Source of the DNA: Entophlyctis helioformis
Lineage: Eukaryota; Chytridiomycota; Chytridiomycetes; Chytridiales; Chytriomycetaceae
DNA: 57,460 bases
NCBI GenBank assembly: GCA_025526915.1
Contig: JAHLKH010000178.1
Location: forward strand, 1-57,460
Reading direction: 5' to 3'
Of this stretch, positions 3,001 through 36,300 are shown piece by piece. The position numbers and the translations under genes are program-made. Position 1 is the stretch's first letter; every line of letters starts with the position of its first letter. The notes below the pieces were generated by a model. It had not been told where the DNA came from. It saw only the letters and a list, made by a program, of their open reading frames with translations, and did no database searches.

Positions 3001-5986
3001 GAACAAGAAGCAGGACGTAATGGGTCTGCAGCCGCCGATTGTCGACATTTTCCGCATTGCAGACATCCGCGATGCCGGCCCTTCGTCGCTCGACCCGCGC
3101 AACGCGGACACGGAGTTCTTTGTCAAGCTGCACGAGCGCCACGCCTCTGCCTCTGCTCCTGAGGCGTCAGGCGCCAGCGCGGTCAGCGGCGCCAGTGGAT
3201 CTCACGGCTCCAGCACCATGGCTCGCTCCAGCGGTGCTGCGATTGTCTATTTCTCGTCGCCGCGTCGCGAAGCTATCCTGCAAGGCATCCGTGCTGCAGT
3301 GGCGCGGTTCCAGCTGTCGAAGCCGCCCATGACGTCGGACGAGCGCGACATCTCGCCGCGCGATCTCCCAGGCACGCTGCTCAACATTGCACTGCTCAAT
3401 CTCGGCAGCAACGAGTCTTCGCTGCGTGTCGCGTCGTACGACCTGCTCTGCGCCATCATGGACAACTTTGCGTTCAACTCGGGCGTGCAGCTGCAGAGCA
3501 CCAAGGGGATCGCCATTCCGTTCAACAACCAGCGGTTTGTCGTCAACATCAGCCGGCAGCTCGCCAAGTCGCAAGAGTCGCTCACGTTTGAGTTTCTGTC
3601 CGAGGGTCTCCTCGGATACCCCAAGCTCAGCCGCGAGCTCAAGCACCACATGCTCGAGTACCTGTCGCCATGGTGGGCCAATCTCGCCCAGTACGTCAAG
3701 CCTGCCGACACGATCGCGAACGCTCTCCAGGCCGAGGCGTCGCGCCAGAAACTCGGTCAGATCCTGACGTCGCTCTTGCAGATGACGATCAAGGAGCAGG
3801 AGAACTTTGCTGTCATCCAGGAGCAGGTGTGGGCCGTTCTCGGCAAAGAAGAGTCGCTCGTGCCTGTCATCCTGGACCTGTTCCTTGAGACGGCCACGCA
3901 GCTGCCTGCTGGCGCCAAGGAGACCGAGATCCTTGGCAACACGCTCGTCACCGTCGCCATTGCGAGCCCGCTGGTTGTGCCTGGCCTTGTCATCAAAGCA
4001 CTCCGCGACGCGCTTGCACTCACCTCGACCAACCCGCGGCCGTCCGTGGTCGACCATCCCGCCTGGCGCCAAGTACAGGCGGTGCTCCGGTTCCTGCTCA
4101 TGCTCTCGTTTGACAACAAGCTGCGCATCCAGCACACGCTGGCGGACCTGTTCCACTCGCTCACGCTCGTCGCTGGCCTTGGCGTGCCGTTTGTGCGGCG
4201 CACGGTGCATGGCATTGTGCTCAACACGGTCCAGGTGCTGTCGACGGCTGCCGGCCTCAGCGAGACGGGGCTTGCTGGACTGCAGATTGCGCTTGACAAG
4301 CTATATGATCCCAAGTACGCGCGTGTGTTTGGCCTGTCGCCCGCCACGAGCACTGGAGCGACTGGCCCGGCTATGCCCGGCGCACTGGCATCGGCGGCAG
4401 TATCGGCGTCTGGACCGACTGGACAGACAGCATATGGTCACTCGGACAGGCAGCCTGGGTACATCACGCCGGCGTTTGTCGTCAGCAACGAGACGATCAA
4501 GGGCGAGTCCATCAAGGAGCTGTCGCTCTCCGAGGTCGAGTTCTTTGTGGGTGCGCTGATGGACCTTGTCACGTACGGCGCGCCGTCTCTGGAGGCGTGC
4601 GCCACGTGGAAGACGCGCTGGATCTCGCTGGCGGCGCGGTCTGCCTTTGAGGACAACCCCACGGCGCAGACACGGTCGTTTGTCACGATTGGCCTCCTTG
4701 CTCGCGACGGGTTTGACGGCGATCTGCTGTACCAGACGCTCATTGCCCTGCGGTCGTCGCTGCTGCGGTTCGACGACACGCGGCCGCAGCTTGTGCAGAG
4801 CGTAGTCATGTGTCTGTGCTCGTCGCTCCACAGCGCGCCTGCACACGACTCGATCATCGTGCCGCTCTTCTGGCTGTCGATTGGCCTTGTGCAGATCGGG
4901 TTCATTCCCTTCTTCCTGAGCGGCCTCAACCTCATGCAGGTTGTCCTGCGCCTCGTTGAAGAGAACCCGAGCCTGCGCGGCAGCCAGCTGACCAACCTGC
5001 TGCTGTCTGGACGCGAGCGGCTGCGCGAGGGTGCCATCAAGCTCGACCACGAGACGCTCATCTACTTTGGCGAGTTCTTCTCGTTCTCTGTCTCGGCCAC
5101 GCTGCTCAAGGGCCTGTCCAACCAGACGCTGCGTGCACCCACGACCGCTGTGCTGACGTCGTTTATCGAGCTCACATCGCACGTTGGCGTTGACGGCTCG
5201 GTCGACCCGCACGACTTTTGCCGCCACACGCTCGGCTATCTCCTGCCCCTGCTGCCGTCCTCGGAGAACCCAGAAGCGCTGCTTGCCCTGGCTGGCGTCA
5301 TGGGCCGCGTCGACGGCATCAGCAGCAGCACCAGCAGCAGCGCAATCGAGGAGCCCATGGCTGCCTACAAGCTGTCGATGCCAAACGCCAAGATCCCGGC
5401 TGCTGGCGGCCAGCCGCAACTGCCGCGCAGCAATCATCAGCCCCAGTTGCAAGCCCAGCAGCCACAGTCGCTGCTCAACTCATCGCAGTCGCTCGTGGCC
5501 CGCCGCGGAGCTGCTGCGCGACTTGCTTCGCGTCAGTGGACCGACCACCTCACGAGCGCCATCTCCATGGCCGATGCTCCCGCCCTCACTCTGGTGCTGG
5601 CGCTGCTCCAGGTCATGCTCGAGGCCTCGGACTCTGAGCCCAAGATCCTGCAGATCCACCGGCTGTTTGTGTCGCTTGCTGAGCAGTCTCCTGTCGCGTT
5701 CGCGCCGGTCTACCGCAGCCTCATTCCGCGCTTCTCGGCCATCCTCCTCTCGACCAAGTCGCCGCAGCTGTCCGAGACGGTGCACGCCATCTTCGAGTCA
5801 ATGGCGGCCCTCTCTACATCGACGGCTGTTGACGAGGACATGCCGGATGCCGTCAACCGCCTTGGATTCGCGGGCCTGTTCTCTGTGCTGAGCCAGGACT
5901 CGTCTGCTGTCAAGGACTCGAAGCACCGCCGTGTCGCTGCGCTCTGTCAGATGATTGACTTGATCGTCAAGACCGGCGCGCTCTGA
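1..5986 (+). CDS. NF1: Neurofibromin-type Ras GTPase-activating protein (5' partial)
   Basis: This protein accelerates GTP hydrolysis by Ras. The frame is open from base 1 with no convincing start, so the N-terminus lies outside the window. One intron fits at 2407-2497 (gtgagt donor, ctcag acceptor) and keeps phase, joining about 799 codons to a second exon ending at TGA 5984-5986. The RasGAP domain lies at roughly 840-1690. It shows the arginine-finger motif FRRNSIATK (NF1 has FRGNSLASK) and FLRFICPAIV, equivalent to the FLRFINPAIV signature. Straight after the intron, DGRPVFYYIARK marks the Sec14/CRAL-TRIO-PH lipid-binding module typical of neurofibromin (Ira1/Ira2 in yeast). The rest is a long alpha-helical C-terminal region. 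An Ala/Ser/Gly-rich linker lies at 1880-2300. Identification is strong; the exact relation to fungal Ira proteins is not resolved. Confidence 0.9.
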
Positions 5987-15971: not shown

Positions 15972-16490
15972 CCCGCATCCGACTGCGCACGGCTGCAGAT
16001 GGACGCTGCTGGTTGGATGGCTGGTTGGCTGGTTGGTGTCGGAGTTTGAGAACATCAAGGAGTGTTTCCGAGACAAGATGCGCAAACGAATGGGCTTTTA
16101 TGTACGTGACAAACTGATGCAACAGCCAGCAGCTTACTCTGAGGGGTGGGCAATAGGGCGAGGGAATGCCGGCAAACCGCCGGCAAATGGCCCGACATTC
16201 AAACAATTGCCAAGCGTTTTGGAATTGGATTCGACCCAAGAAGCGTCGAATGCAAGCCCGCACATCACACGATGGAAGGTTCGAGTCAGCAATGAGCATG
16301 CGACGACAGGTGGGCGAGGCACACCAGCGAGATGCTTACCTTCTCGTAAGAAAAGTGACCCGTTAGGTCGATCGGGAGGTGCCCCGATTCAAAGTGTTGG
16401 TGGTTGTGGCAAGTCACATGGAGTGACGTGCTGTGTCCGTGGAGGACACTGCTGCGATGCTGTTGACAGGCTGACCGGCTGGCGTGTGTG
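15972..16490 (-). other. 3' flank of the Fanzor gene (candidate guide-RNA / element end)
   Basis: No protein gene is supported here. In TnpB and Fanzor loci the guide RNA overlaps or follows the 3' end of the nuclease gene and ends at the element boundary, so this is where such an RNA would lie. Visible structure includes two GCCGGC/GCCGGCA half-repeats around 16168-16186 that could form a short hairpin. The actual RNA and boundary cannot be fixed from one copy. Confidence 0.3.
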
Positions 16491-19400
16491 TCAAGTAGAG
16501 CGGCCGTTGTCCAAGGAACAGATGCCCAGTGCAACCATCCCGATGTTGGTGGCTCCAAGCACATCGCGGTGGTAAACAGTCTCACATGGTATGCACTCGT
16601 AGCGTCGCAGGTTGGTGCGGTTCTCGTATGGGATCCGCTGCTTGCACTGCGGGCACATCTGGCTGGTCAGGTTCTCGTTGCAGCGGTAGATCTGTGTGTG
16701 TGTGTGCATGATCGTGTGGTCAGTTGGTGCACAGATGGATGGATGGACAGATGGACAGCATGGCATCAGACGTACATAGGCATATCCAGACGACCGCAGA
16801 TGCCTGATGAGAAACTTCTCAAACACAGCGTGCCTGCCACCTTGGCCTGTAAAGTCAATGCCAAATGCCCAGACAACGGGAATGTCCTTCTCAGGGTTGC
16901 TGACAGGGAGGCCTGAGATGCATCGGATGCACGCTCTCCAGTCTTTGATCCTGCCAGATTCATGATGCCCTCAAGAGCGTTTCCGCGATCAGACATGCTG
17001 TTGCTGCGCATGGTGAACCGCTTGGCCTTGACCTTCTGTGGAATGCCATGCCATGCCATGCCATCCAGTGCAATCAGCATGGCGATCAAGCAGCATGGCG
17101 GCCATGTCAATGGGCATCCAGAAACAGAGAAAACGCACCCGTGCATTCAGGAATGGCGTGCAGTACGCATGGCAGCGCAGATCCCAAAAGGCTCTCTCGC
17201 CTGCTGTGGCGTTTGGATCGGCATGCTTTGCTGTTTTGAATGCAATGGCCTCGTGGACGTCAGCAGCCTTGGCATATCGATTGTTGAACCTGGCACAAGA
17301 GGCAGTTGCTGTGAGTTGATCTGGTCAAGAGTGTACGTGGCAGAGTCATTGCATGCATACCACCGCTGAAGGCTGTGCTCGGCTCGTGCCATGCCAGAGG
17401 AGAGCACGTAGTTGGACTCCATCGTGTATGTCTTGTCCTCGACATTGACCAGCATGCTGGACGTGCCATACAGGTACCGCTGCCCCAGTCTAGACTGACA
17501 ACGCGAACAGTCTGGTAGCCCTTGTCGGCGAGCAGCTTGTTGGCATCAGCAACATTGGGCAGTCGCTGGGATGCATTAAAGTTGCGCTGAGCCTGCCATG
17601 CCATGGCATGAGTGAGGAATGTGCAATGCATGGGCACCAATGCGCGAGGTTAGCATGCAAGTGACATACAGGTTTGGCACTTTTGGCTTGGCGGCTGATG
17701 GGTCGGCAGGATCGGCGGCTGTGGATGGCATGTCAGTTGGTGTGGACAACAAGAACGCGTCTGGATTGGCACAGCAACTCACATGTGCCATTCAGGTAAT
17801 CGGGCTCGATAAATTGACCATTCAAGGCATTAAGGATGCCAACAGCAGCATCCGCAAGACTGGGCTGCTGGGCTGGAGACGCCGCGTTGGGACCTGCAGA
17901 GCAAGGCAGTGGTCAGAATCAATGCGTGCACCAAAACATTCAAGCACGGCACATACTGCGAGGCGACTCTGGACGGTCTGTGCGGCAGTCCAGTGCCAGC
18001 TGATAGACCGTGTATCCATCCGTCATGATGCTGCCTTGTCTGATCACTTGCTTTGAAGCCACCAGAGGCTGAGAATCAACCGCGGCCTCGTCACCCTTGG
18101 CCTGCGTTGGACGGCGTCGATTCTTGGGGCGGAGGCCAGGCAGGAGGATGTCGAGGATGGCCAGCTCCTTGCTATTGCTGAAAGCCCTTTGGATGACCTT
18201 GTCGTCAGTCCCAAGCTCCAACTTGGCATCTTTGCAGTTTTGGATAAAAGTGGAGTGTCAGCATCAAATAGCATTGGCGTGGCATAGACACATGCAACTT
18301 ACCAACTGCGGCCAGGAGCTCCTTTCGCAATGCTTGGAGGACAGGATCGTGCTCATTGCCAATGCGATCGCTTTGCAGCCCCACCACCGCCCAAAAGAGC
18401 GTGGCCTCAGTGACAAGGATGAACGGGTCACGGCTTGCTGGCTGCGGACACAGCTTCATCACTGAAGTGCCAGCGAGCTTGAGGAGTTGGTAGAACCGTC
18501 CAATGTCCGATGTTGACATGCTGCGCACAATTGCCTGAATTGGATTCAGCTCTTGTGGGATCTCGATGGCGTCCCCATCCTGTGCGGCTGGTGGTGTGTC
18601 TTGCATGGCATCTGTGGCGACAGGGGCAGTAGTCTCGTCCCTTTGCCTCTTGGATGTGCTGCCATCAGTGGCCAGCAGAAGCTGTGACGCGGTCCGCTTG
18701 AGAGTTGGGGCGGGAGGAGCGACATCCTGAGTGGCGTCCATGGCGTCGTCCATGGCGTCGTCCTCGATGGCCGGCAATGGGGCGTCTTGAGCAGTGTCCT
18801 GAGCGGCGTCCTGAACGGCGTCTTGAGCAGCGGCATGCCTGGCAACCTTGGTGGTCTTGAGTGGCTTGAATATGGCATCGACCCACGCTGCAATCTGCTT
18901 GGGAGTCGCAGCAGGCATTGCTCTCTGGGCTGCGACCAATGCCAGCTTTGACCGGTTCTCGATGAAGTGCTTGGCGAGTGTGGCGCTCACCTCCCTTGCC
19001 AGGTTTTCGAAGATCTGCTTGGTCGCACGCGCGCACAGGGTGTTGACAAGCCGATAGGGCACCACTGCCTGCTGTGTGTCGGCCTGCTGTGCATCAGCTG
19101 GGTGCAAGCTCGACCACCACATGTCTGGATGCCGCCCACGAGTCTGCTGCTTCTTGGCCGGTCGACGCGCGCCTGCCTTCATCTCGGCCATCCGTGCGGT
19201 GGTCCGCAGCGCGCCTGCCTGCTGCGCATTGCCAGTGTCCATGTCAGCCTTGATCGTGTCGGCTGGTGGTGCAGCTTGGTCGGTCATGCTGCCAGGTGTC
19301 CAGCTGCGATGGATCAGCAGCTGGACAACCGTGACAAGCCACGCATTGAGCGTGAGCATGATGGACATCGGCTTGACCATCTGCTCGCCCGTTAGGACAA

Positions 19401-22400
19401 ACGAGAGGTGCCGCAGGATGCAGGCCGCGGATGTCTGGCCACCCGACTCACTGGCGACAAGCATCGCAAGCAGCTCATTGGGCGTTGGCACTGCTGGTGC
19501 TGCTGGTGCTGGTGGCTGGCGTTGGGCAACTTGCGCGTCTCGACCTTCTCGAACATGACGCGCTCGAGTCTTGTTCCCTTGACCAGTCGCACGCGATGGC
19601 CGAAGCGAGGGTGCTTGCTGCTGCCATTATACTGACTTGCGCCGTACATGGTCCGCGCGGCAATGTCCTCGCGAAGCGTGAACTGACCGGACAAGAGCTC
19701 CGCTTTCGTGACAGCGCCGAGGCCCTTGATGACGTCCTTGTCGCCGAGGTCATCGAGGTCCTTGAGATCAGCGTCCAGGAAACAATACTGAGTCGCCTTG
19801 CCATCGGGCCATTTGTAGACATGGTACGACGGTGGCAGAGGCGCGTCCTGGTCAAGCTCGAGAAGTTCCTCGACGACGGCACCGATGACGACAAGGCCGG
19901 CATGCCGCACGCCGACCGTGAACGATTGAATCCTCGCGACAATGTCCTCAATAAGTTGGCGGCGTGTCCAACTTGTTGATGATCTGATGGCATGAACGCC
20001 AAAGATCGGGGCGCTCTGCGGGCCGCCTGACAACATGTCCTGAGCACCATGCAAGCCAACCTCTGAGTCAGTACATTCAAAGCCATGCATGCAGGCAGAA
20101 TGGCAATCCAAAATCATACCTCCAGCAGCACTCTCATATGACGATGATCAGATGCATCCTCTCCAGGTTGATCGGGTGCGTCTGCAGCGGCTTGATTGGT
20201 TGCGTCCGTGGCGGCTTGACTAGGCGTGTCGGCAGCAGGTTGACCGGGCGCGTGCACAGCAGCTTGTTGATTGTTGCCGCCAATGGCCGCAGGGAGCGTC
20301 ATGGGTGCCCCTGACGTGAGGCGTCCCCCCTTTCTGTCAACCCGACCTTGTGTCACTCGTGCTCCACCTTTGCGTCTGCAAAGCCCACACATGTCAGCAA
20401 GCATGCCCAAGGCACATGGCACAGTGTACAACACTCACGTCTGCTTCGGGTCCACTGGTTGGGTGTGGCGGTCTTGCCGGCGTGCACTCTCCTTGTTCCT
20501 GTCGATGGCCTTGTCTGCCGCGGCCTTGGCAGCTTGCTTTTCGCGCTTCTGCTTGTTCGCAGCCTCCTGTTGCTTGGTGATTTGGCGTCGCGCCTGTGGA
20601 GGTTGGATGCACCATCAGCAATGCATTCCGAGTGCACACAATGCATACGCAAGCACAATGGAACACCAGAACTGACCGTCGTCCGGATGTCTGCATCTTG
20701 ATTGAGATACAAGATCTTGCAGTCTGCTTGACCAGCCTGGCCGTCGGCGGATGGTGGTTCTTGCTCGGGCAGCTTGGGCAGTTGAGCCTCCTGTCAAGTG
20801 GAACAATGAGCAATCGTGCCAAGTCATTGCATGCACACACAGCCAGTGAAGATGGAGACGCACCGTGGCTTGCTTGATGATGGACTCTAGCAAGTCAATG
20901 ACCTCTTTCAGCTGCTCGTGGCGTGTCACTGGTTGGCCATCCGTGATGCTTCTCAGTTCGTTCAGCCTGTCCGCGGCCTTGTTGCAGATGTCGGCAGCAG
21001 TCAATGGGGAACCGCCTCGGGTGATGGCCTTGCCTTGATGCTTGACTTGCTGCGTGGCTTGCTGTGGGTCTTTCTGTGAGTCTTTCTGAGCATCTGTTTC
21101 TGGAATAGCACCGTTCAGCAAAGAAGGTGCTGTCAGTACATGATGTCAAGCCATTCCAATACAAGCAACGCATACTTGGCGTCGATAGGTGGCGGTGTGA
21201 TTTGCATGGAGGATTGACAATCTTGCCCAACTGCTTCTTCATCCTCAAAGCAGCACCCTGTACAATGAGCAGTGGATTGAGTTTGACACGTCCAGGCGAG
21301 GAGTGCACATGCATCAGAGACATGCAGCAACTTACATGTCCATCCCAAATAGCCCGATCCTTTGGGCCAAGCTTTGCCCGCTCTTCCGCTTCACGAGCCT
21401 GCTTGCGGACAATCTCCAACAGTTGCACACTTGCCGACCTGCTGATCTTTGCGAGAATGTTGCGGCCTTTGACCCCGTTGGTGATGTGAGTGATGCGATC
21501 GGCCACATGTCGGAGGACGCAGTCGAGTGCGGCGGGGCAGTCCTTGACCTTGTCCAGCGTAAGACTGAGCTGCTGTTCCTTGACAATGTTCCTGACGAGT
21601 GGCCTGATGTCGTCCTGCGTGAGATGGATGATGTTGGGGTCTTGCTTGCCTTGCTGCGCCTTGGGATGGATCACAAGGCAGCCGTCATGTAGCTGGCACC
21701 TGCATTGCAATCCAGTGGTTGCATCAAAGACAGAAGCACAGAGTCAGTCATGCAGGACACACCAAGAGATCACATGCATGCATACATACTTTGCTTGATG
21801 CGTGGTGGTCGCGTCAACAGCCACGCTGTTGTCGTTGCCATGTGGTGAGAGATGGTCAGTAGAGTGCCATGCATGCAAACGGATCTATGCCACCATGCCA
21901 TGACCAGTCATGCAAGGACTTGCCTCTTCTTTGGCACATTGCCAGATTGACTGCTGTCGCTGGTTGGGAATGTGACCGTGTTGGCAAAAGTCCCTGACTC
22001 ATCATGGTAGACGAAAACGCCAAAGGCATTGAGGAAGCTCTTGGCAAGAGCCACACCACCATCCAGCGACAGCAGGTCAGCAACATACGCATTCTTGACG
22101 CGATTGGCAAATGCATCTGCCTCCATAGGATCGTGAAGCAGCGCACAGAAGTCGGCCGGGTTGTTGAAGCGGCGCTCCTTGGCCGCGGCGTCAAACTGGT
22201 CGTTGATGAACTTGACGGCAGCAGCATTGCCTGCCAGGCAATGTGAATGGCAACACAAGTTAGTCAACATCGCAACATGGATGACAAACACAAGCACAGA
22301 GTCAAGCAATGGACATACCGCGACCATGGCAACTGTGATAGTCATTGTTTGCTATGGCAGCAAACAGCTGACATACACCAGGGAAAACACGCAGTCCAAG

Positions 22401-23389
22401 GGCAGCTGCAATGGTCGCAACGCCCTGGTGATTGAACGTGCGGATGTTGGTGGCATGCCCGCTGTGCATGCGTGTCATCAGGACACCGCAACGGCCAGCA
22501 CAATGGAATACGAGATCCGAATCGCCAGTGATGACCGCTAATGGCAGGACATTGCTGCAGGATGCAGGTTGTCAGCCATCAATCATAACAGACAGATGCA
22601 TGCCGATCTGTACCTTGGCTGGCTTGCATACTCGGCAGCGTCGCGTGCGATGCAAACATCGGCTTCGTGTTCGCACCAGCATACAGCATGGTACGACAGC
22701 GGGTCGAGAAACGCCTCAATCGCTTCCTTGATATGCTTCTTGTCGCCTTGCGTGAGAGTGAAGCAGCGCATCAGCGCCTGCTCCTCTTTCCTGCAACAAT
22801 GACTGTTAGTTAGAATCATCTTGATGCTGCACAAACAAGTGACCTTACTTTTCTAATGCCCCACATCGGCGACGGTCTTTGCGTTTGGCACACAACTGTT
22901 GAGCTGTTGCTGCTGCGCGCAAGACGTCCAAGGTGCGGCTGGCATGCGCCTGCTGCTTGATTCCAGTCTCGGCAAGCCTGCCATCAACATGGAAGACGAC
23001 GATCCGGCCGTTGCCGACCGACTTGAGGAAGCTGTCGAGGACAGGTGCAAGAATTGCCAACCACCCACTGACAGATGATGGCAAGTGGGAGGCAGCCAGT
23101 TTACGGAGCGTTCCGTAGAAGATGCTCAAAGCATCGACGTGGACAATTCCGGATACGAGCATGTGCGGTTGCAGCTGTGGTGGTGGTGGTTTCCTTTGAA
23201 GCAGGCGCAGCATCAATGGTGGTGGCAGAAGATGGGGTCGAGTGGTCGCGCTGTTGTAAATGCTGCTGATGCTGTGTTGCGTGGTGTCTTCAAGCACCAG
23301 ATCCAGTCCAGCAGACAGCGTCGTCCCGAAAGGTAGTGCCTTGCCCCCTGCCCCTTGATGACTTTTGGGATCACTCTTGGAATGCCCAT
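16491..23389 (-). CDS. XPG/FEN1-type nuclease fused to a Fanzor (TnpB-like) RuvC nuclease
   Basis: Predicted ~1,800-aa double nuclease. Inferred exons: 23389-22849, 22790-22614, 22554-22319, 22230-21924, 21825-21790, 21699-21336, 21257-21176, 21129-20864, 20790-20677, 20593-20439, 20375-20120, 20039-18303, 18229-17957, 17893-17783, 17718-17670, 17592-17364, 17289-17139, 17035-16776, 16691-16491. The N-terminus MGIPRVIPKVIKG and seven acidic residues match XPG/FEN1: VDALSIF, VFHVDG, CEHEAD (two Glu), TGDSDL (two Asp), NNDYHS followed by a helix-hairpin-like GRGNAAAVKFI. A long charged, Gln/Ala/Asp-rich linker follows. The C-terminal third is Fanzor: TDGYTVYQL; RuvC-I VVSLDWG (Asp codon 17488-17490); RuvC-II VVWAFGIDF; zinc ribbon MCPQC...ECIPC; RuvC-III YHRDVLGATNIG; stop at 16491. 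In-frame continuity needs small corrections near 19550, 17720, 17485 and 16965, and the exon-1 junction (23160-23340) is unresolved. Two separate genes remain possible, because a stop at 21908 would close the first nuclease alone. Confidence 0.7.
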
Positions 23390-23432
23390 GCTGCGTGAGT
23401 GTCAGAGCGAGTGGCGGTGGCGTTGGCGTCAG

Positions 23433-23530
23433 GGTGAGGGGGCGTTGGCGGGCAAGCACGTGCTTGCTGGACGAGTTGGTGGGCGAGGGGGCGTTGGCGG
23501 GCAAGGAGGCGTTGGCGGGTGAGGGGGCGG
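23433..23530. repeat. GC-rich direct repeats upstream of the nuclease gene
   Basis: About three imperfect copies of a ~20-bp unit (core GGGGGCGTTGGCGGGCAAG) lie 45-140 bp upstream of the nuclease ATG. The position suits protein-binding sites or transposon sub-terminal repeats; neither is shown. Confidence 0.6.
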
Positions 23531-24069
23531 CGTGCGTTGAGAACTGGGCCAGCCAGACATGGACAGTGAGGCGGCAAGAGCGAGAGAGGACAGAGCAAAG
23601 GCAGCAAGTGCGAGCGTCAGTGCCAGTCAGAGTACGCAGTTGGGTCTGTAGATGGATGGACAGGAGCACACCAACCTGCCGTCTGGGGCCGAGCGACTGC
23701 GTGTGGCTGCGAGAGCAAGAGGGGGTTGGACAGCGTCGTGGGCTGGACGGGATGGGGCGGTCGGTTGGTCGGTGGGCAGGAGGTGGAGCAAGGCACGGTC
23801 GAGAGTCAGCTCGCCACTGCTCCAACAGTGCGGCAGCTGCCGTGGTGGCAGTCGACTGGCTCCACTGGGCAATGAGCGGCATGTACGCACCACTCGAAGG
23901 CTGCAAGACTTGACGGATGCCGCCTCGCAGTGAAGGGGCGTGCCGCAGTGGCTGTTGGGGATGGTTGTGTGTCGACTTGGGAAGCCCGAGTGGTTGATGG
24001 TGCGGCAGGCTTGTGAAGGCTTGCGAGGCACTGGTCATGTGGCAGCCCATGTGCACGGCACTCTTGTGC

Positions 24070-24120
24070 CCATCGGAACCATCCGCCCATCGGAACCATC
24101 CGCCCATCGGAACCATCCGC
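24070..24120. repeat. Three perfect 17-bp tandem repeats
   Basis: Three exact, contiguous copies of CCATCGGAACCATCCGC occupy 24070-24086, 24087-24103 and 24104-24120. They lie in the divergent intergenic region, about 145 bp upstream of the partner gene ATG. Confidence 0.9.
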
Positions 24121-24264
24121 CTGTCAGCTGCCGCTGTGTTGTCGCCCGTGTTGTGCTCGCTATTGATGGCGCGCATTTGGGCAAGTGCCGCGACCAGATC
24201 TGGGCTCGACCAATCACAGCGATCCCACCACCAGTGGCAGTGGCGCTCTGACAACAGAGTTGGA

Positions 24265-26082
24265 ATGGACGAGCAACAGCCACCACATGCCGCTGTGCAC
24301 CAGCAGGACGACATGGACGCAGCAGCCACCACAGAGCCAGCTCCGAGTCAAGCAGACCCACAGGCCATCGACCCAACAGGAAAGGTTCTGGACAACAGCT
24401 TGTGCTTCCACTGCGACAACGGTTCATTCGAAAGCATGACACTGGTGGACAAGAAGAACCAAATATACTCGCTGCTGCCACTCGTCAAGCTCACAGACGG
24501 CCCGCGTAAAGGCGTCATATGCATCCAAGTGTCTCGCCTCCCCTTGGTTCTGACAAGTTTCGTTCCAAGACGACTTGACAACAACGTCCCTGCCTTTGCC
24601 ATCAAGGCGAAACCTGGCGGCCATGAAGTATAGGTGGTGCTTCTCAAAGACATTGACAAGCTTCTCGTCATGCTCCCATGCCTGTAGATTCCAGCAATCC
24701 CGGCATCGTGATGCATGGCATTGCATCCGATCCCTCGTTCAAGAGCAGCGTCCTCCAACTCCTTGAGCACTATGCAAAGTACCGCGATCATCACAAGGTA
24801 AGTCTGATCACCCACAACGCACAATAAGCAGTGCAATCGCTCACTGACTTCCAAACCTCACACGACAGTTTGCCGAGACGAGCGTCTTTGCAGCAGCCAA
24901 CAACCAGAATCTGGGCATGCTTGCGACACTTGATCCAAAAGCAGAGTTTGCAGTCCCAGAAGGAGCGACCTTTACGCACCTGTATGATCGCGCGCTTACG
25001 TCCTATCCCGTAGAGCAAGTAAGCTTACAAGCATGCAGGCGACACACTATCCTTGACGATCAGCACTAACCATTGCATGCAACACAGCTGTTTAACGCGT
25101 GGCGAGACAGTTTACGACGGACTGGAAAGGGCCGGAATGACAAGTCAGACCTGGAAGAGTTCATGTCAGTCGCACGACAGATGCAACTCATCTTCAAGAT
25201 CAGGTCGATGGACATCAAGCAGCGCGGATTCCTTGTTGAGCCATCCTGCAAATGCCGGTAGGATACTCTCATAGGATGTGTATGCACTGATCGCACAGCA
25301 GACTAACTGCACGAACAGCACATACACATCCTACGACAGATCATACAACATCTTTGTATGGGGACCCATCAGCGATCCCGTCTGGAAAGAGTATGCTGTC
25401 TACACAAAGGCAGCCAGGACAGAGGTTGACATGAGTGAGCAGAATTGCTGCAGGCATTCTGTGTGTATCGCCTCGACAGTTCTCAAAGTCAGACCAATCC
25501 AAGCGCGATGCCTTACAGCAGCTCGAGGAGACGCGGCAGCTCGACGATCCGCCGAGTGATCCATCCATGTCCTCGTTGGTGAGCTCGTCTGCCTCTTGTG
25601 CGATGGCTGTCAACAGTTGCGACTCTGTTGACACTGTGTGCCTTGACAATCTCGACGACGACAAGGACCTTGTGGATGAGCCTGGACAGCCAGCCGTTGC
25701 TGTAGCTGCCACGCCAACAGCCAGCCGCCAAAGAGCGTCAAGCAAGCGGAAGAGAGCAGCAGCAGCAGATGCCAGTTCGTCTGTGCCGGCTGTGACGTCG
25801 GTCGTTCGGACATTGCAGCAGGCAGCCCAACAGCACACACAAGAGGGCCGACTGGACGCAGAAGGCCAACAGCTGCAACAGGCAGTAGCAGGACAGTTCT
25901 TCGTGACACTACCAACACGCAACCAACTGCTGCCCCTTGGACAGGCTCAGCAGTCCACAAGCCAGCATCATAGCGACCACGACTTGAGAAGGCATCGACT
26001 GCAGGCTGCTCAGAGTGACCGTGAATCCGGACAAGAATATGAAATTGGATTCAAAAAGATTGGAAATTGGATGCCAAATTGA
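24265..26082 (+). CDS. Unrecognised protein, divergent partner of the double-nuclease gene
   Basis: I do not recognise this protein. Inferred exons: 24265-24528, 24634-24797, 24869-25018, 25088-25257, 25319-25424, 25480-26082. All introns have gt/ag ends, and phases agree except for one base near 24680, where an extra C in a CCC run would join KDIDKLLVML to PVDSSNPGIVMHG. The first intron is a choice: reading through instead gives an in-frame TAG at 24631. The protein starts MDEQQPPHAAVHQQDD. Its middle is a globular-looking segment with FAAANNQNLGMLATLD, LFNAWRDSLRRTGKGRNDK and YNIFVWGPISDPVWKEYAV. The last exon is acidic (LDNLDDDKDLVDE), then carries a basic SSKRKRAAAA cluster that could be a nuclear signal, then a Gln-rich tail. 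Its placement suggests co-regulation with, or membership of the same element as, the nuclease gene. Confidence 0.55.
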
Positions 26083-26154
26083 ACAAAATTCGAGGCAAAC
26101 CAGCCGACCAATCAGGTGCCGGCGCAAGGTTTTCTATGGGAACGAAATCAATTA

Positions 26155-26165
26155 CCCCCCCCCCC
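26155..26165. repeat. Poly-C run
   Basis: Eleven consecutive C residues lie between the convergent partner gene and STYX gene. This is a likely length-error site in the assembly. Confidence 0.9.
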
Positions 26166-26290
26166 TCGCTTACTCTTGCATCTCGTTGACTTCCCGCGTC
26201 TCCTTGTTCCATTCGCGATTCGCCTGTCAGGAACGATATGAGTGTCAACGAGCCGTATCGACATGCTGGCCTGGTCAGGCCAGGCATCGT

Positions 26291-27387: not shown

Positions 27388-27469
27388 GGGCGGATGGCCG
27401 AGCGGTCCAAGGCGCCACGTTAAGGCCGTGGTCTCTCCGGAGGCGTGGGTTCGAATCCCACTTCGCTCA
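27388..27469 (+). tRNA. tRNA-Leu (anticodon AAG)
   Basis: This is a class II tRNA of 82 nt without an intron. The acceptor pairs GGGCGGA with TTCGCTC (two G-U pairs), with discriminator A. The D-arm is GCC/GGC and the anticodon stem is CCACG/CGTGG around loop TTAAGGC, giving anticodon AAG at 27422-27424. A variable arm follows, then a T-arm GTGGG/CCCAC with loop TTCGAAT. A T-run (pol III terminator) begins at 27474. The A and B boxes are recognisable within the D and T arms. Confidence 0.95.
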
Positions 27470-27943
27470 CTCACTTTTTACTCGCCGAGCTCCTTGCTAG
27501 GCGGGTGCGAGCACTTTTTTGGATCAGCCAGCGGCGACTTTATTCCTGGGCACCTTGCCTGCACGCAGCACTGCTGGACGCACTGGCGACAAGGTCGCGT
27601 CCAACATCGTCGCTGCACCCACAACAATCTCGTCGAAACAAACAGCCTGCCAGTGCTTGTTCAAGCCGGATGATGCCAACGAGCCTAGCAAGATATCATT
27701 GCTTCTCTGCTGGGTAGGCACGGAGTAGTGCCTGCAATGTGAATGGTGCGACGGTGCTTGCCAAGCTGCACCTCGTGGCTGGGCTGGCTGGCTGGGCTTA
27801 TTGACACGTCGGCAGCCTCCTTGCAAAAGGCAATGACAATTGTACACTGCCCTTTGTGCACCACTGCCCTCAGTAAAAGAGCACCTCATTCATGTGCATT
27901 CCGCACTCTGCCACAATTGCCCCAACACTCCGCATCAGCCAGA

Positions 27944-30900
27944 ATGGGATCCCTTTACGTCCCCGCTGTCCGCACACAGATCAAGCGCAATGTGTTCTCG
28001 TTCGTCACCCTCTCGTGGATGTCGCCCACCTTCTCGCTCGGTTACAAGCGTCCGCTGCAGGAAGACGTGCGTCTGAGACCGCTCTGTCCACTGGCAGCTT
28101 GCAACCGCATACTGACGCTGACACTTGCATGCAGGATCTGCCCGACCTGAGCGACAACGACAAGGCCGAGAGCATTGCCAAGGTTCTCGACGGCTTCTGG
28201 GCCCAGCTCAGAGCCCACTTTGCCAACCCGCAGCAGGTCAAGCCGCCATCGCTCTTTACCACGCTTGCCTCGTCGTACATCGGCTACTTGTAAGTGCACT
28301 CTTGCTGGCCAGCTGATCGCACCCACCCCCGGTGGTCTTGCAACTCCGACACACACCTTTGGCTCACATTGCACTGCACCGCTCGTCCACCACTTGCCAT
28401 TCACTTCGCGACATGCAGCACCTCTCTTTTCTTCATCAAGGCGCTCGCCGTCACGGCCAACATCGTGATCCCGCTCCTTGTGCCACAGATCATCACGGCC
28501 ATCCTCGTCGGTCCTGATACGCCTGGCCTGCTCATCGCCAACGTCTACGGCCTCGCCGGTCTCTTCTTTGCTGCCAACCTCGTCCTCATCCTCCTTCGTG
28601 CTGCCGAGACCGCCGTCGATCTCAACTTTATGCTGTCCATGCGCGCCGTCATCATTGACGCCATCTTTGGCAAGTCGCTCCGTCTCTCGCCCAAGGCCCG
28701 CGGCGAGTTCTCGGCCGGCAAGATCAACTCGCTCGTCGATGCCGACGCTGACACCGTCATTTCGTTTCCGGCGACCCTGCTCATGCTCATTGGTGGCACC
28801 GTGCAGATTGCCCTTGGTCTCTACTACGTCGGCCGCGTGCTTGGCGTCGCGACCTGGGTCACCATCGGCGTGTTCCTCGTCTTCTTCGTCATTATGATTG
28901 TTATCAGTCCGCTCTTGGGTGCTGCAATGGGCGGCTACATGCAGATCATGGATCTGCGCACTCGCAAGCTCCGCGAGTTCCTCTATGGTGAGCCTGCCTG
29001 CCATGCTTGCATTGCATTGCACACATTGCTCTTGTGCTGACAGTCTGCATCCAACGCCTCGCATCGTCACTCACAGGCGTCAAGATCATCAAGTACCAGG
29101 CTGCCGAAGAGTTCTTCCACTCGGCAATCCTCGGTGCTCGTGCACAGCAGCTCGTCGCTCTCTGCAAGTTTCTTGTTCCGCTCATCTTCCTTTTTGCCGC
29201 TCTGATCGTCCAGCAGACCAGCATTGCTCCCGTCTCCATCATCGCATACGCCGGCTTTGGCAACGAGATCACCGCGAGCAACATCTTTGGAATCATGGCT
29301 CTTCTGCAGGCCGTCTCTGGACCAACCGAGTTCCTTGACAGCGCCTTCTCGTGAGTCGTGCTCAGCACTTGGACCGTGTGCATGCATTGTGTTTCGATGG
29401 CATACTGACAATGTGGCTTCCTCCCTGTATACGTTGGTGTCTGCAGTAGAGTTGTTCAGTTCTTTGTCAGCTACAAGCGTATTAGCACGTTCCTGATCGC
29501 TCCTGAGATCCAGGATGGCGAGACCACTGCCATGCTTGCCAAGGACCAGTCGGGCGACGGAGCTGCCATCAGGATCGACGGCGCTGCGTTCACCTGGGAG
29601 ATCGTCGAAGAAGAGTCCGACATGCCGACAACCCTGCACAAAAGGGCGACAAGAAGGACGCGGAACCTGAGCCTACTCCCGAGTCAGCCATCATTGCCAA
29701 TTCCAATGATGCGTCCTTTAAGGCGATTGTTGTAGCTGTCGTGAGCGATACCGCCGAGGCGACCAAGGAGCAGGAGCCGTTCAAGCTCGAGGACATCAGC
29801 CTTTCCATCCCGCGCGGCTCGCTTGTTGCTGTCGTTGGCTCTGTTGGATCTGGCAAGTCGTCGTTCCTGTCTGCTCTCATTGGCGGCATGCGCAAGACGG
29901 CTGGCTCGTCGTCCGTCTACGGATCCGTCGCCTACTGCGCTCAGGAGCCGTGGATCCTGACCGGCACCGTCGAGGAGAACATTGTGTTCAGCGACGAGTC
30001 CGTGCGTCCCAACATCGCCAAGGCCGTGTCTGCCTCGTGTCTCGAGCACGATCTCGAGCTCCTCCCCAACGGTCTCGGCACGCAGATTGGCGAGAAGGGC
30101 ATCAACCTGTCTGGCGGCCAGAAGGCTCGTGTTGCACTCGCTCGTGCCATTGCCCGCGATGCCGACATCTACCTGCTGGACGATCCCATTGCCGCACTTG
30201 ATGCACACGTCGGCAAGAAGGTGTTTGACGAGGCCATCTGCGGCACGCTCAAGAGCAAGACGGTCGTGCTTGTCACGCACCAGCTGCACCTGCTTCCCAA
30301 GGTCGACTTTGTCGTCGTGCTTGACAATGGTCGTGTTGCCGAGACGGGCACGTTCAAGGATCTCATGGCTGTCCCCGAGAGCGCTCTCTCTGGCATCATG
30401 AAGGACTACCACTTTGACGACGAAGACGACAAGGACGACGAAGAGGACAAGGAAGAAGCCAAGGAGGACGACGAGATCATCAAGGCCATCGAGGAGTACA
30501 AGACCGAGAAGGCAATCGAGGAGGACCGCCGCGTTGGCGCCGTCAAGCTTGATACGTTCCGCTCGTACTTTATCGCTGCCGGTCCCTTTTACTTTGGCCT
30601 GCTCGTCATCCTCTTTGTTCTCTCCGTGGCAGTTTCGAGCATGGTGCAGATCATGATCACGATCTGGGCGGACAACAAGTGGGGATGGGCACTTGGCGAC
30701 TACTACAAGATGTACATTGGTCTTGGTGCTGCGGAGATGTTTGTTATAAGTAAGCCGTCATGCTTGTGTTGCATGCATGTTTGTGGCATACCAGAGAACT
30801 GATCCATGTGCTCTCCCATCCAGTCCTTATGACGACTACCATCATAATCCTTGGCTACAGATCCACCATCACGCTCCACGACACTGCTCTGGCTGGTCTC

Positions 30901-32453
30901 GTCCGCGCTCCCATGTCGTTCTTTGACGGCCAGCCCATCGGCCGCATCCTCAACCGCATGACTGCCGATGTCCGCAGCCTAGATTTTCAGATGATCATGC
31001 TTCTAATCAACACGGCTGGATACCTGGCCGCTTTCATCACAGCCATCATCATGGTGGCATACTCGTTCCCTCTTCTACTGAGTAAGTCGCCGCTGCCACT
31101 GACCAGACCGTGTTGATCCACGACTCTCCGGCTGACACTCCTTGAACAGTCCAATTCGCCATCATTTTCGGCCTTGCGTTCGTCATCTACCGCTACTTCC
31201 TGGCTTCGTACCGCGAGCTCAAGCGCCTGGCATCCATCATGAAGTCGCCGCTCAACTCGCACGTCTCCGAGACGCTCAATGGCATCCCCACCATCAACGC
31301 GTACGGTGCACAGTCGGCATTCATTGCCACTGAGCACGTCAAGATGGATCTGCTCAACAAGTCGGAACTGTTCCTCGGCAGCTCGCGTGCGTGGCTGTCG
31401 CTTCGTTTGCAGCTCCTCGTATCTACCGTCGTCCTCGTTGTCATCGCACTCAGTGCCACCAAGAACATCACTGGCTCGGCTGTAGGTCTTGCCATCTTCG
31501 GTGCTCTCAAGATTGGCGAGAACGTTGTGTACACATTGGGCGATGTTGCCGAGACCGAGGCTGCCTTCAACTCGGTCGAGCGTCTCAACCACTACGCCAA
31601 CGACCTGCCGTCCGAGGCTGCCCGCCTGCTGCCCAACGACCCTGCGACCAAGGACGAGTGGCCGACTGCTGGTGCACTTGCCATCCGCGACCTGCAGATC
31701 TGCTATGACTCGCGTCCCGACCACGCCGTCATCAAGAACCTATCGCTCTCCATCCGTCCTGGCGAAAAGGTCGGCATTGTCGGCCGCACCGGCTCGGGCA
31801 AGAGCACGCTCATGACGGCCCTGTTCCGCATCATGGAGGCATCCAAGGGATCCATCACCATCGACGGCCGCGACATTGCGACGCTCGGTCTCAAGACGCT
31901 GCGCTCTCGCCTGCAGATCATCCCGCAGGAGCCCGTGCTGTTCAAGGGAACCGTGCGGTCCAACCTCGACATGCTGCAGACGGGATACACCGACGAGCAG
32001 CTGTGGGAGTCGCTGTCGCTCGTGGGTCTCAAGGACTACGTGGCTGCGCAGACGGACAAGCTGGATGCGGCCATCGAGGAGAACGGATCCAACCTGTCGA
32101 TGGGCCAGCGCCAGCTGCTGTGTCTTGCCAAGGCCATTCTCGCGCGGCCCAAGGTGCTCATCATGGACGAGGCGACGGCGTCGGTGGATGCCGAGGCCGA
32201 CAAGCGCATCCAAGAGTCGATCCGGTCGCAGTTTGCACACACGACGGTGCTGAGCATTGCGCACCGTCTCAACACGATTGCGGCGTTTGACCGCGTGCTT
32301 GTGCTTGACCAGGGCGAGATTGCCGAGTTTGATGCGCCGCATGTGCTGCTCGGCCGGGCTGGCTCTGTGTTTGGCGAGCTTGTGGATGCGACTGGTGCTG
32401 CCAACGCTGCCGTCATTCGCGAGATTGCGTCTGGCCACTACAACGCCATGTGA
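27944..32453 (+). CDS. ABCC-family (MRP-type) ABC transporter
   Basis: Full ABC exporter with TMD1-NBD1-TMD2-NBD2. Seven exons: 27944-28066, 28135-28289, 28419-28987, 29077-29350, 29447-30749, 30824-31081, 31150-32453. NBD1 shows GSVGSGKSS (Walker A), LSGGQKAR (signature) and IYLLDDPIAALD, the Asp-for-Glu Walker B typical of ABCC NBD1. NBD2 shows GRTGSGKST, LSMGQRQ and VLIMDEATASVD with the catalytic Glu. An acidic KDDEEDKEE linker follows NBD1. One indel near 29640 (an AAAAGGG run) is needed to stay in frame. There is no clear TMD0, so it resembles short MRP4-like proteins. Substrates of the family include glutathione conjugates, organic anions and peptides. The 3' end converges on the NRPS (97 bp between stops), which makes product export a reasonable but unproved role. 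Confidence 0.9.
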
Positions 32454-32550: not shown

Positions 32551-33350
32551 TCACTTGGCTTGCACATGACCCTTAAGGACACTCTTCAACATGGACGCGG
32601 GTATGATGTTGCGTGCAGCAGTCTTATCTGCCGGTTGTTGAGCCTGGTCGGCTGACAGGCCGATCATGGTTTGGATAGCAGCAGCAAGGGCGTTCACAAA
32701 CTCGCCGTCGCGTGGAATGTCGTGGCCAGCGTCGTGTTCAAGCACCATGCGCATGTCGGCTCGGTACGAGCTGCGCAGTCCGGTTCTGAACACTTGCTCT
32801 TCGTTGGTGCCTGTGCATGGATGGACGGGATGCTGACAGTCGGATGGGCAGTTGACACGTGCGACGACTTGATGGAGGCTGAGCCAGAGAAAAGAGCACT
32901 GAACTTCCATGTGCGCTGGATTTTGCCCTTGTGTGCAAGCTGGTCAAGCATCTCGACGACCATGGCACCTTGCGAGAAGCCCAGCAGACCGTCGATGGGA
33001 CCAAGAGACGCGAGCTTGGCAGTGAAGTATTTGGACACAAGCGTCGTGTCTGACTTTGTGATGAACAGAGACTGCGTGAACCACTCGAACCACTCCATAT
33101 CGGGATAGATCTCACTCATGGCTGTGGGGATGACAGAAGGATGTCAGTTGTGGGATAGAAGCATGCGTGATCAGAGACGAGAGACTTACGTGACGAAGAC
33201 GTCTTGAAGGGTGCTTGGATGAACACAAACTCGATGTTGTCGCCAAAGTGTGCCTTAAGACCAGACAGCTGGAACTCCATGTGGACGGGATTAGAAGCCT
33301 GGCCGTGGAGACAGGCGATGCGGATGGCATTCGTGTTGATGCCCTCATCC
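32551..33350 (-). other. FSH1-type serine hydrolase domain at the NRPS C-terminus
   Basis: This alpha/beta-hydrolase domain follows the last carrier domain: IRIACLHGQASN opens the fold (LHG oxyanion region), GLLGFSQGA is the nucleophile elbow, and HDAGHDIPRD carries the catalytic His. A 68-bp intron (33122-33189) joins APFKTSSS to MSEIYPDMEW. One base must be corrected near 32810 to bring the His segment into frame. FSH1/OVCA2-like hydrolases usually occur as free enzymes. Here the domain takes the place of a type I thioesterase, so I infer hydrolytic or cyclising release. Confidence 0.8.
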
Positions 33351-36300
33351 TTGATAGAGTTCTTTCGTTCAGCTAGAAGAACCGCCCTGGTAAGCAGTCC
33401 AAGTGTTGGCTGCTTGAAGACGGCTTGAAGAGACAGAGTCGGGCAGTCAAAGGCGGACTGGATCTTGCGGACGAGAGCGATCGCGTTCAAGGAGTTGCCA
33501 CCAAGTGCAAAGAACGACGTGTTGCGGCCGATCGACTCGACTGGCACACCAAGCACATCGGCCCACACGGCTGCCATGCGCATCTCGGCATCGCTCGACA
33601 GGCTCTCGACAGCAATCACAGCGTCCATGGCGGCGAGTGCCTTCTTGTCCGTCTTGCCGTTTGGATTGGTCGGCATGGCGTCCAGTCCCACAAACACAGC
33701 CGGCACCATGTACGCTGGCAGGTGCTCTGACACCACATCGCGCAGCTCGTCGGCATCAATGTCGGTCGGTGTCACAAAGCCAACCAGGTGCGTCTTGTCC
33801 TTGCCAATCGCTGCAGCTGCCGTCACTCGCGGGTGCTTCATCAGTGCGGCTGCAACCTCGTCCAGCTCAATGCGGTATCCCTTGAGCTTGACCTGGTCGT
33901 CACGGCGTCCAATGATCTCGAAGCGGCCATCGGGAAGCATGCGTCCGAGATCGCCCGTCTTGAACATGCGGCTGCCACACTTGGCTGTAAACTCGCCGCT
34001 CGCAAACGGATCGGCCAGGAACTTGGCGGCCGTCATCTCGGGAAGGTTGATGTATCCAGGCGACACGCCAATGCCGCCAATGAACATCTCGCCCATCACA
34101 CCAGCAGGCACGCGGCGCATCTGCTCGTCAAGGATATATGACGAGGCATTGGTGACAGGAGTGCCAACAGACACATCCTCAAGAGCGCCAATACTTGCAG
34201 CATGCGAGATGATGGACAGCTCCGACGGTCCGTATGCATTGACGAAGGTGGCCTTGGACGACCACAGATCCTTGAGCTCTCCTGGGCAGACTTCGCCTGC
34301 GACGGTAACGCTCTTGAGTCGGGGATAGTCGGCGGGGCTTCCAAGCTGAGCCAGACCAGTTGGTGTGATCATCAAGACGTCGACCTTGGCAATAGTGGCG
34401 AACGCGTCCTCTGTGCGCATCACAAGCGTGCATCCGTGGCACAGCGATCCCCACACTTCCCATTGGCAGACGTCGAATCCAATGGCCATGAACTGCATGA
34501 CACGGGCACGCGGCACACATCCGATCTTGGGCGACGTGAGTGCAATGACGTTGACGGCACCACCGTGCGGCACTGGCACGCCCTTGGGATTGCCCGTCGA
34601 GCCTGACGTGTACACGATCATGAACACATCCGATCGAGATGCGGCGTGCTGCATGTCAGCCGATACCTGGAATGCGACAACGGCCTTGGTTGATGTGGCT
34701 GTCTGGAGAGCATCGGCCGACACCATCACGACTCGCACGGTGGATGGCAGCTGCAGCTGGTCGATACGCTCGCGCTCAGACTCGGTCGACAGCACAACCG
34801 TCACGCCGGCATCCGCGAGAATGAACCGGATGCGCTCGGCTGGGAACTTGGAGTCGAGCGGCACAATCGTCGCGCCGGTCTTGAGCACAGCGAGCAGTGC
34901 AAGCGGGAACTCGAGGCATCGCTGCATGATCACTGCGACGCGCGAGCCAACACCAATGCCGCCAAGTGCAACGATCTGGTTGGCAAGCAGAGTGCCGCAC
35001 TTGTCCAGTTCGCCATACGTGATCGACTCGTCGCCGTACTCGACGGCCGTCCAGTCGGGATGCTCGGCAACGCGTGCCTCGAAGCCGTGGTGCACTGCCT
35101 CGTACGGCAGATCCACAAGTGGTCCGAAGCTGTGTGCGTCGAGCAGCTGCATCTGAGCAGGCGACAGATCCCACAGACGCTCAATCGATGACTTGGATGC
35201 GACTGCGGCTGCAAGCTGGCCGACCGTGAAGTCAAACTCGGCCAGGATCGACGACGCCTGCGTATGCGACAGCTGTTCAAAGTTGTACAGTGCCGTCAGG
35301 CTGATGCCAGTTGCACTCGGGAACATGATCAGCTCAAATGTGTACGCCAATGAACGCGACGATTCTTGCGATTCAACTTGGTTGAACGGCAGCTGTGCAC
35401 CGGCATCACCTGACAGACGGTCGTCTTCTGGCAGGTTCTCAAACACAAACAGTGTCTGGAACAGCTTGGCGTCCGATGCGAGGCTGCTCCACTTGTGCAC
35501 GTCGATCAGACCCGTATGCGAGTGTGGCAGCATCTGTCCGTGGTCCGACTGCACGGCACGAAGGACATCGGATGCATCAGTGGCGTCCGAGTCGATGCGC
35601 ACTCGGCACGGCACGGTGTTGATCATGGCTCCAACAATGCTGCAGTCAAGGATGCATGTGCGAGTGTCAGTCATTGGCTATGTACACACCAACAACAAGC
35701 AGCAACGACAGCATCCAACTCACCGGTCGGCACCAGCAACGGGAATCTCACGGCCAGACAGCACCTGGCCAAACACGATGTCGCTGGATCGCGTGTACTT
35801 GCGCAGCGTCATGGCCCATGCTGCCTTGAGGAACACGGCGACCGTGACGCCTGCCGCCTTGCTGCCGCCTGCATCTGCGACATCGGCAGGCTGCACTCGA
35901 GCGACAGCGGCTTGTCCTCGGAGGCGTCCTCAGAGTCCCACTTGCCGAGCGACAGTGGCTCGGCTGGTACAACACCAGCAAGATACTCGCGCCAGAAGGC
36001 CTCGGTGGCGGCTGCATCCTGTGCGGCGATGTAGTCCACCACAGACCGGAATGCGGGTCGCTCCTCGAGTGCGTGGCCGCCATATGCTGCAAGCAGGTCT
36101 CCCACGATCATCGGCAGGGACCAGCCGTCGTACAGCGTGTGGTGGATCGTGAGCACAACAACAGGATGCGAGTCGTCCGTGGCATCCGACACGAGCGACA
36201 GACGGATCCAGTGCTTGTCGCCGACCGTGAAGCCGCGAGCCTTGTCTTGGACGAGGAACGCGGCAATGTCCATGTCGGCGGCGAGAGTGACACGCTCGAG

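Follow-up and report, generated by a model that had tools for sequence, protein, structure and literature searches.

The window analysed here is the whole 57,460-nucleotide stretch of contig JAHLKH010000178.1 (assembly GCA_025526915.1, positions 1 to 57,460, forward strand) from the chytrid Entophlyctis helioformis, and its minus strand carries, from 23389 to 16491, a gene in which an XPG/FEN1-type nuclease is followed by a TnpB/Fanzor-type nuclease. Comparison with related copies in the same genome makes it very likely that this fusion is the true architecture of the gene. The copy in the window is probably a decayed version of the principal gene in a DNA transposon family that has many copies in E. 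helioformis, and the copies that remain open can with high confidence be predicted to encode one protein. This predicted protein of about 1840–1890 residues probably consists of an XPG/FEN1-type part (residues 1–420), a middle part (about 430–1570) and a TnpB/Fanzor-type RuvC part with a zinc ribbon (about 1580–1862). A preliminary description of the window had placed both motif sets in this order, and the translated frames bear this out on the minus strand. It mentions neither the high-copy transposon around the gene nor the broken state of the window copy.

Gene model and open copies

The gene model was derived from an alignment of 11 copies, the window copy included, and its junctions were inspected. 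It has 19 exons, more than the "about 14" of the preliminary description. Its parts are as follows.

23389-22849, 22790-22614, 22554-22319, 22230-21924, minus strand: exons 1–4, XPG/FEN1-type part; exon 1 frame-broken in the window copy
21826-21923, minus strand: intron 4, GC-AG, containing the stop at 21908; donor GCAAGTC in all 11 copies
21790-21825, minus strand: exon 5, the link exon, 36 bases
21699-21336, 21257-21176, 21129-20864, 20790-20677, 20593-20439, minus strand: exons 6–10, middle part without recognised domain
20375-20120, 20039-18303, 18229-17957, 17893-17783, 17718-17670, minus strand: exons 11–15, middle part without recognised domain; exons 12 and 15 frame-broken in the window copy
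17361-17592, minus strand: exon 16, RuvC-I motif D-W-G; frame-broken in the window copy
17139-17289, minus strand: exon 17, RuvC stretch lying between motifs I and II
16776-17035, minus strand: exon 18, RuvC-II region; frame-broken in the window copy
16491-16691, minus strand: exon 19, carrying the alternative glutamate, the zinc ribbon (CPxC/CxxC) and HRDxxxATNI; near the exon end its frame departs from that of the open copies

Sequences of copies and loci are denoted below by L and contigs by C (C38 = L007, C50 = L020, C1 = L021, C60 = L036, C2 = L003). Three of the 11 aligned copies are free of stops over all 19 exons, namely L007 (1887 residues), L020 (1836 residues) and L021 (1852 residues), and the other eight have from 5 to 41 stops. 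The window copy itself is broken, since its exons 1, 12, 15, 16, 18 and 19 differ in length from those of C38 by numbers that are not multiples of three, leaving six exons out of frame. The in-frame fusion proposed in the preliminary description is therefore found in C38, C50 and C1 and not in the window copy, and the claim rests on these other copies. Two other readings of the window copy were considered and ruled out. A separate small exon carrying the MGIP start is contradicted by the continuous first exon of L006 and L007, from which the window differs by one base, and an intron at 19.5 kb as the cause of the frame change is contradicted by L006–L009, which differ there by one base.

The L007 protein is 73% identical to those of L020 and L021, and the overall ratio of replacement to silent substitution rates (dN/dS) among the open copies is 0.35–0.43. 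In the XPG exons the ratio is 0.09–0.43 over three pairs of copies, with two values undefined; here, as in exon 12, purifying selection is clear (p from 1.5e-14 to 1.8e-26). A point against an intact, selected fusion is that on the RuvC side, in exons 13–19, purifying selection between subfamilies is weak (p 0.055 and 0.031). The silent divergence (dS) between L007 and L020 falls from about 0.75–1.7 in the XPG exons, where defined, to 0.02–0.14 in exons 16–19, and by eye the introns around exons 16–19 are also alike in these two copies. Because of this drop the 3′ module seems to have been made uniform among the subfamilies, or swapped between them, as their XPG halves grew apart.

The joint between the two halves

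The splice phases agree across the joint, as the preliminary description had proposed, both in the junctions of the copies and in spliced alignments; the same five introns are found when L007 is aligned to the L020 protein. The stop at 21908 falls inside intron 4, and the GC-AG form of this intron is found again in L038. At the corresponding position of the distant paralogue L036, whose XPG part is only about 40% identical, an intron of the GT-AG type occurs in the same phase; behind it come a small exon (22 codons, against 12 in the link exon) and a further phase-2 intron. Codons 421–560 of L007, which correspond to exons 5 and 6, have a replacement/silent ratio of 0.59 against both L020 and L021 (Fisher p 2.5e-4 and 3.7e-4); replacement changes per site are thus fewer than silent ones, so that these exons are very likely translated. 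Since L007 has no methionine from residue 355 to residue 559, translation of this region must start upstream. Owing to the GT-AG intron of L036, the selection on exons 5 and 6 and the lack of methionine in L007, an end of the gene at 21908 is rejected.

Arrangement of the halves in the genome

A genome search with XPG exon 3 lists 150 rows, which merge into 146 loci of 36–100% identity, and a search with the last exon, which encodes the zinc ribbon, gives 256 candidates, of which the best 150 (90–100% identity) were used. At least 94 of the 146 XPG loci are followed in the same orientation, at no more than 14 kb, by a RuvC/zinc-ribbon exon, which in at least 75 of them lies at 4.8–6.6 kb; the pairing is a lower bound, as only the best 150 of the 256 zinc-ribbon candidates were counted. 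None of the 150 zinc-ribbon matches listed lies upstream of an XPG match on the same strand, and three lie within 14 kb on the opposite strand. In keeping with a lower bound, C60, unpaired in this count, is collinear over the protein, and five of 23 unpaired XPG loci tested have the 3′ RNA core described below downstream of them. The same order is kept in paralogues with 27–44% identity over their N-terminal parts. The preliminary description had named homologues in which the halves are always separate as a finding that would speak against a fusion; at the level of sequence the genome argues against separate genes.

Among the 150 zinc-ribbon loci listed, 71 have no XPG match upstream. These were considered as proof of Fanzors without an XPG part, and the idea was dropped: of two that were inspected, C23 is a short 3′ remnant within the 8 kb covered, and C153 runs off its contig.

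The N-terminal XPG/FEN1-type part

Nine aligned paralogues, a set that leaves out L039, L040, L042, L043, L044 and L047, share D86, D136, K145, R152, E223, D225, D251, D253 and D311, as well as G319, without exception; four of the nine are 35–59% identical to L007 where compared. The seven acidic residues reported in the preliminary description are thus all present and invariant, together with the active-site lysine and arginine. The catalytic positions of FEN1, D34, D86, K93, R100, E158, E160, D179, D181 and D233, follow one another in the same order and with similar spacing. Six of the seven sequences that reach the N-terminus begin with MG, the exception being L036 as recovered; L044, outside the nine-paralogue set, begins with MTV. 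The failure of a first hhalign comparison led to another with the I-domains of FEN1, EXO1 and XPG. This alignment is in register over 128 columns, with p 0.0086 and a probability of 2.1%; its score of 14.3 exceeds the maximum of 13.6 among 150 column-shuffled decoys, none of which reaches it, and that of the reversed template (6.4).

The part resembles FEN1, XPG and EXO1 in its MG start and in the order D, D, K, R, E-x-D (E-x-E in FEN1), D-x-D, D, and differs from them in being very divergent and in having a low-complexity insert ahead of the first aspartate. In the searches of this analysis, copies of the element were the sole source of this divergent form. An XPG-type identity of the N-terminal part is strongly favoured by this catalytic skeleton, on which membership is based rather than on a match to a curated model.

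The C-terminal TnpB/Fanzor-type part

The C-terminal end of L020 matches Pfam PF07282 (OrfB_Zn_ribbon, now Cas12f1-like_TNB) at E = 1.3e-11 and 44.9 bits against a cut-off of 26.3, and the NCBIfam model guided_TnpB matches the same end in three of six members at 4e-7, below its cut-off. A glutamate stands six residues ahead of the first CxxC (E-NLTSQM-CPQC), invariant in alignment A1 and present in 16 of 18 aligned 3′ ends. Fanzor proteins are described by such an alternative glutamate, by a DPG at RuvC-I that is nearly exclusive to them and by a spacing of 120–160 residues, and D-Phi-G is the TnpB form of RuvC-I (Yoon et al. 2023, PMC10711439, in the part of that report considered here). The alternative glutamate, the zinc ribbon and the RuvC-III aspartate are shared with these families, as set out in the same part of PMC10711439; the differences from them are a TnpB-like D-W-G and a longer stretch from RuvC-I to the glutamate.

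Several observations count against a Fanzor assignment in the strict sense. RuvC-I is D-W-G, not DPG, in L007, L020, L021, L036, L037, L038 and L039; the spacing from DxG to the glutamate is 186 in L007, outside the published range; and the glutamate is replaced by lysine in two of the 18 aligned 3′ ends (L011 and L019). The Fanzor identity given in the preliminary description therefore stands for the glutamate and the zinc ribbon and fails for the DPG and the spacing, and because D-W-G is the TnpB form and 186 exceeds 120–160, the protein is not filed as a strict Fanzor. It is probably TnpB/Fanzor-type. Among PDB entries alignment A4 gave LaTranC at E 0.13; no relative was confirmed in viral contigs, and phage records gave only three weak zinc-ribbon matches. 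The RuvC part is rather likely to be RNA-guided.

The transposon and its candidate guide RNA

The DNA of this region has 48 matches in the genome and therefore belongs to a multi-copy repeat. Seven other copies are 94–97% identical over 5.4–7 kb, and the remaining matches are copies and pieces, mostly at 69–92% identity. The element features in the window are as follows.

16141-26167, minus strand: entire copy of the DNA transposon, about 10 kb in length, with 26167 as its left and 16141 as its right end, flanked by a target duplication
16132-16140, plus strand: target-site duplication GCTTACTCT, 9 bp
26168-26176, plus strand: second copy of the target-site duplication GCTTACTCT, 9 bp
16141-16146, plus strand: short terminal inverted repeat GAGGGG
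26162-26167, minus strand: short terminal inverted repeat, CCCCTC on the plus strand
24265-26082, plus strand: divergent second gene of several exons (by-eye model), without recognised domain
16141-16402, minus strand: candidate guide-scaffold (omega) RNA, with a hairpin core at 16390-16366 and following sequence reaching the transposon end

The right end CACCCCTC is common, at 16141, to 13 of 18 other loci compared, and the other five diverge 36–48 bases earlier; on the left the boundary of the copies lies at about 26140–26168. Eight copies with both ends were compared by eye for the duplication, C53 and C50 being left out because their right ends diverge early. The duplication measures 9 bp in the window copy and either 9 or 10 bp in C38, it has one mismatch in C3, and there is no clear trace of it in C13 (two copies), C1, C130 and C125. 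A search for a MuDR transposase found no transposase domain in the Pfam-scanned parts of either element gene. At about 20 further sites the second gene is 92–95% conserved and, as judged by eye, frequently lies head to head with an XPG locus.

The core of the candidate RNA, GAATCGGGGNACCTCCCGATCGACC, occurs exactly at 171 places in the genome and its backwards control at none. Among the first 100 cores listed, 76 follow one of the listed zinc-ribbon exons in the same orientation, at a distance of 82–439 bases. Folding gives hairpins in succession along the candidate RNA. Hairpin III has five sequence types, four of which are more stable than most shuffles of the insert (fractions of shuffles as stable: 0.0095, 0.0035, 0.002 and 0.03). 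Two results weigh against a conserved scaffold: the fifth type is no more stable than its shuffles (0.43), and the consensus fold shows a two-sided change in one of 63 pairs (13 of the 18 sequences having the core). The scant covariation is attributed to a consensus alignment that is too conserved. Rfam gave two matches, neither near its gathering score. From its position and predicted folding the conserved 3′ segment is a good candidate for the guide scaffold.

Other sequences near the element and its copies

A tRNA-Leu(AAG) gene lies at 27388–27470 of the window, about 1.2 kb past the left end of the element. It is followed at 27918–32444 by a second multi-copy repeat of 4.5 kb, 91–93% identical in C193, C103, C229 and C328, which by eye contains an ABC-transporter-like reading frame. 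Tandem near-identical open frames resembling peptide-synthetase modules occupy 33100–52200, and a retroelement-integrase-like frame lies on the minus strand at 56376–57458, both recognised by eye. Elsewhere in the genome, L003 (C2) carries at 1904–3161 the last exons of a Fanzor-type copy, on the opposite strand directly behind the host FEN1 gene. This FEN1 gene shares 98% identity with the one known from E. helioformis, as expected for the host.

Alternative explanations

The collinearity of the two halves would also be expected if a mobile element carried two genes, one for an XPG-like protein that stops in intron 4 and one for a TnpB/Fanzor-type protein with its own start further on, the two remaining side by side only as parts of one transposon. 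Several facts are in keeping with such separate proteins. The GC-AG intron and its GCAAGTC donor are kept in all aligned copies, and the TGA shortly past the donor, with the same local reading, is kept in 10 of the 11 (the exception is L024), which taken alone is compatible with a gene end; and L020 and L021 have a methionine in exon 6. Two further points count against the main reading: the intron behind the link exon was placed at another phase in L038, and the RuvC part of L036 is broken by three stops. A search of deposited proteins of 1038–3302 residues (5.8-billion set) with the three open proteins as queries gave none at E ≤ 0.001 among 7985 scored candidates, which suggests that the deposited proteins include no full-length model of the gene. 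The RuvC part alone found 10 matches among 337 candidates, all from E. helioformis. The deposited fragments found are 168–332 residues long and weigh little, since that search could return only proteins of 155–494 residues. Against separate proteins stand the GT-AG intron of L036 in its corresponding place and phase with the small exon and phase-2 intron behind it, the 139 codons past the joint that are selected as protein and lack a methionine in L007, and the space of just 224 bases between exons 4 and 6, exon 5 included. The preliminary description had itself named a split at the stop at 21908 as what would overturn the fusion; the sequence speaks against it, and two separate proteins appear very improbable. 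It is also unlikely that one chain is translated as a polyprotein and cut, as in many retroelements, into XPG and RuvC parts that work apart. The very long chain and the Ala/Gln/Pro-rich low-complexity stretches in the middle of the open proteins would suit such processing, and what opposes it is that no protease domain was found in the Pfam-scanned parts, with about 50 residues near 800–853 of L007 outside the scan.

The fusion of two nucleases further depends on the identity of the N-terminal part, which might be another PIN-like or an unrelated domain whose acidic residues are alike by chance. The XPG/FEN1 identity of the preliminary description holds for the catalytic skeleton and finds weak support in profile searches. 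No Pfam XPG model is above its cut-off (XPG_N and XPG_I were looked for), XPG_I_2 reaching E = 0.044 and 13.7 bits against a cut-off of 24.2 in one of five members, and another member has an unrelated chance Pfam match at E 0.008. The sole NCBIfam match of the N-terminal part is unrelated (0.065); no XPG-family match was found in the PDB, where alignment A2 gave two unrelated matches at 0.82 and 1 and alignment A1 gave nothing. BLASTP of paralogue L048 against the I-domain segment of host EXO1 gave E 2.8, and the hhalign probability is 0.5% against a FEN1 alignment over the whole length and 2.1% for the I-domains. A chance likeness is nonetheless improbable in view of nine catalytic positions that are invariant in nine paralogues in FEN1 order and similar spacing, and of an I-domain alignment that is in register and scores above all 150 decoys and the reversed template.

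Relation to known systems and possible function

Fanzor-type genes from other fungi, among them the chytrid Spizellomyces, provide the closest comparisons for the element. Fungal Fanzor1 genes occur in MuDr-like elements of Rhizopus, Phycomyces and Mucor with 9-bp duplications and without a transposase (Bao & Jurka 2013, PMC3627910). Judged from the part of that report considered here, these elements are the nearest known setting for this transposon, which shares with them a fungal host, a TnpB-type gene, the 9-bp duplication and the lack of a recognised transposase. No fused second nuclease is described in that part of PMC3627910, whose text contains neither "fused" nor "fusion", whereas the element here has a fused XPG-type part, short G-rich ends and a 19-exon gene. 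SpuFz1 of Spizellomyces has 42 loci with full or partial genes and a locus of about 2.1 kb with one open reading frame (Saito et al. 2023, PMC10432273, likewise in part). It resembles the present element in its fungal host, many copies and inverted ends, and its guide RNA comes from the transposon end; unlike SpuFz1, the element here is 10 kb long and encodes about 1840–1890 residues with an added N-terminal nuclease and D-W-G. A search of open-licence literature found no account linking Fanzor with XPG or Fanzor with Chytridiomycota, in agreement with the preliminary description, which knew of no such fusion.

The following mechanism can be proposed. An RNA from the right end of the transposon would guide the RuvC part, its guide being taken from flank DNA beyond the transposon end, and the RNA-guided cut would help the element to be kept or copied. 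Flaps, gaps or staggered ends left by the RuvC cut or by excision of the element would be the substrates of the XPG part. The middle part, without recognised domain, may include a guide-RNA-binding lobe. That the two nuclease activities are used on the same break, a reasonable idea already put forward in the preliminary description, is a tentative suggestion, the mechanism being inferred, and separate targets for the two nucleases are a possible alternative. It is more speculative still that the protein is a self-contained RNA-guided cut-and-process enzyme, whose flap nuclease trims staggered or flapped ends at that same break and through which the element shapes the repair of its donor or target sites. 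Equally speculative is the view of it as a natural two-nuclease effector that has given rise to a hundred or more diverged copies within a single chytrid.

In the parts of the reports considered here, Fanzor-type enzymes are described as single nucleases on transposons, and what the element gains from them is unclear (PMC10711439, PMC10432273, PMC3627910). If such an enzyme has indeed been fused in nature to a structure-specific nuclease and is kept so by selection, this would hint at the purpose of the Fanzor-type cut. Such a fusion would also make the processing of repair ends testable in a eukaryote and would provide a ready-made two-nuclease scaffold.

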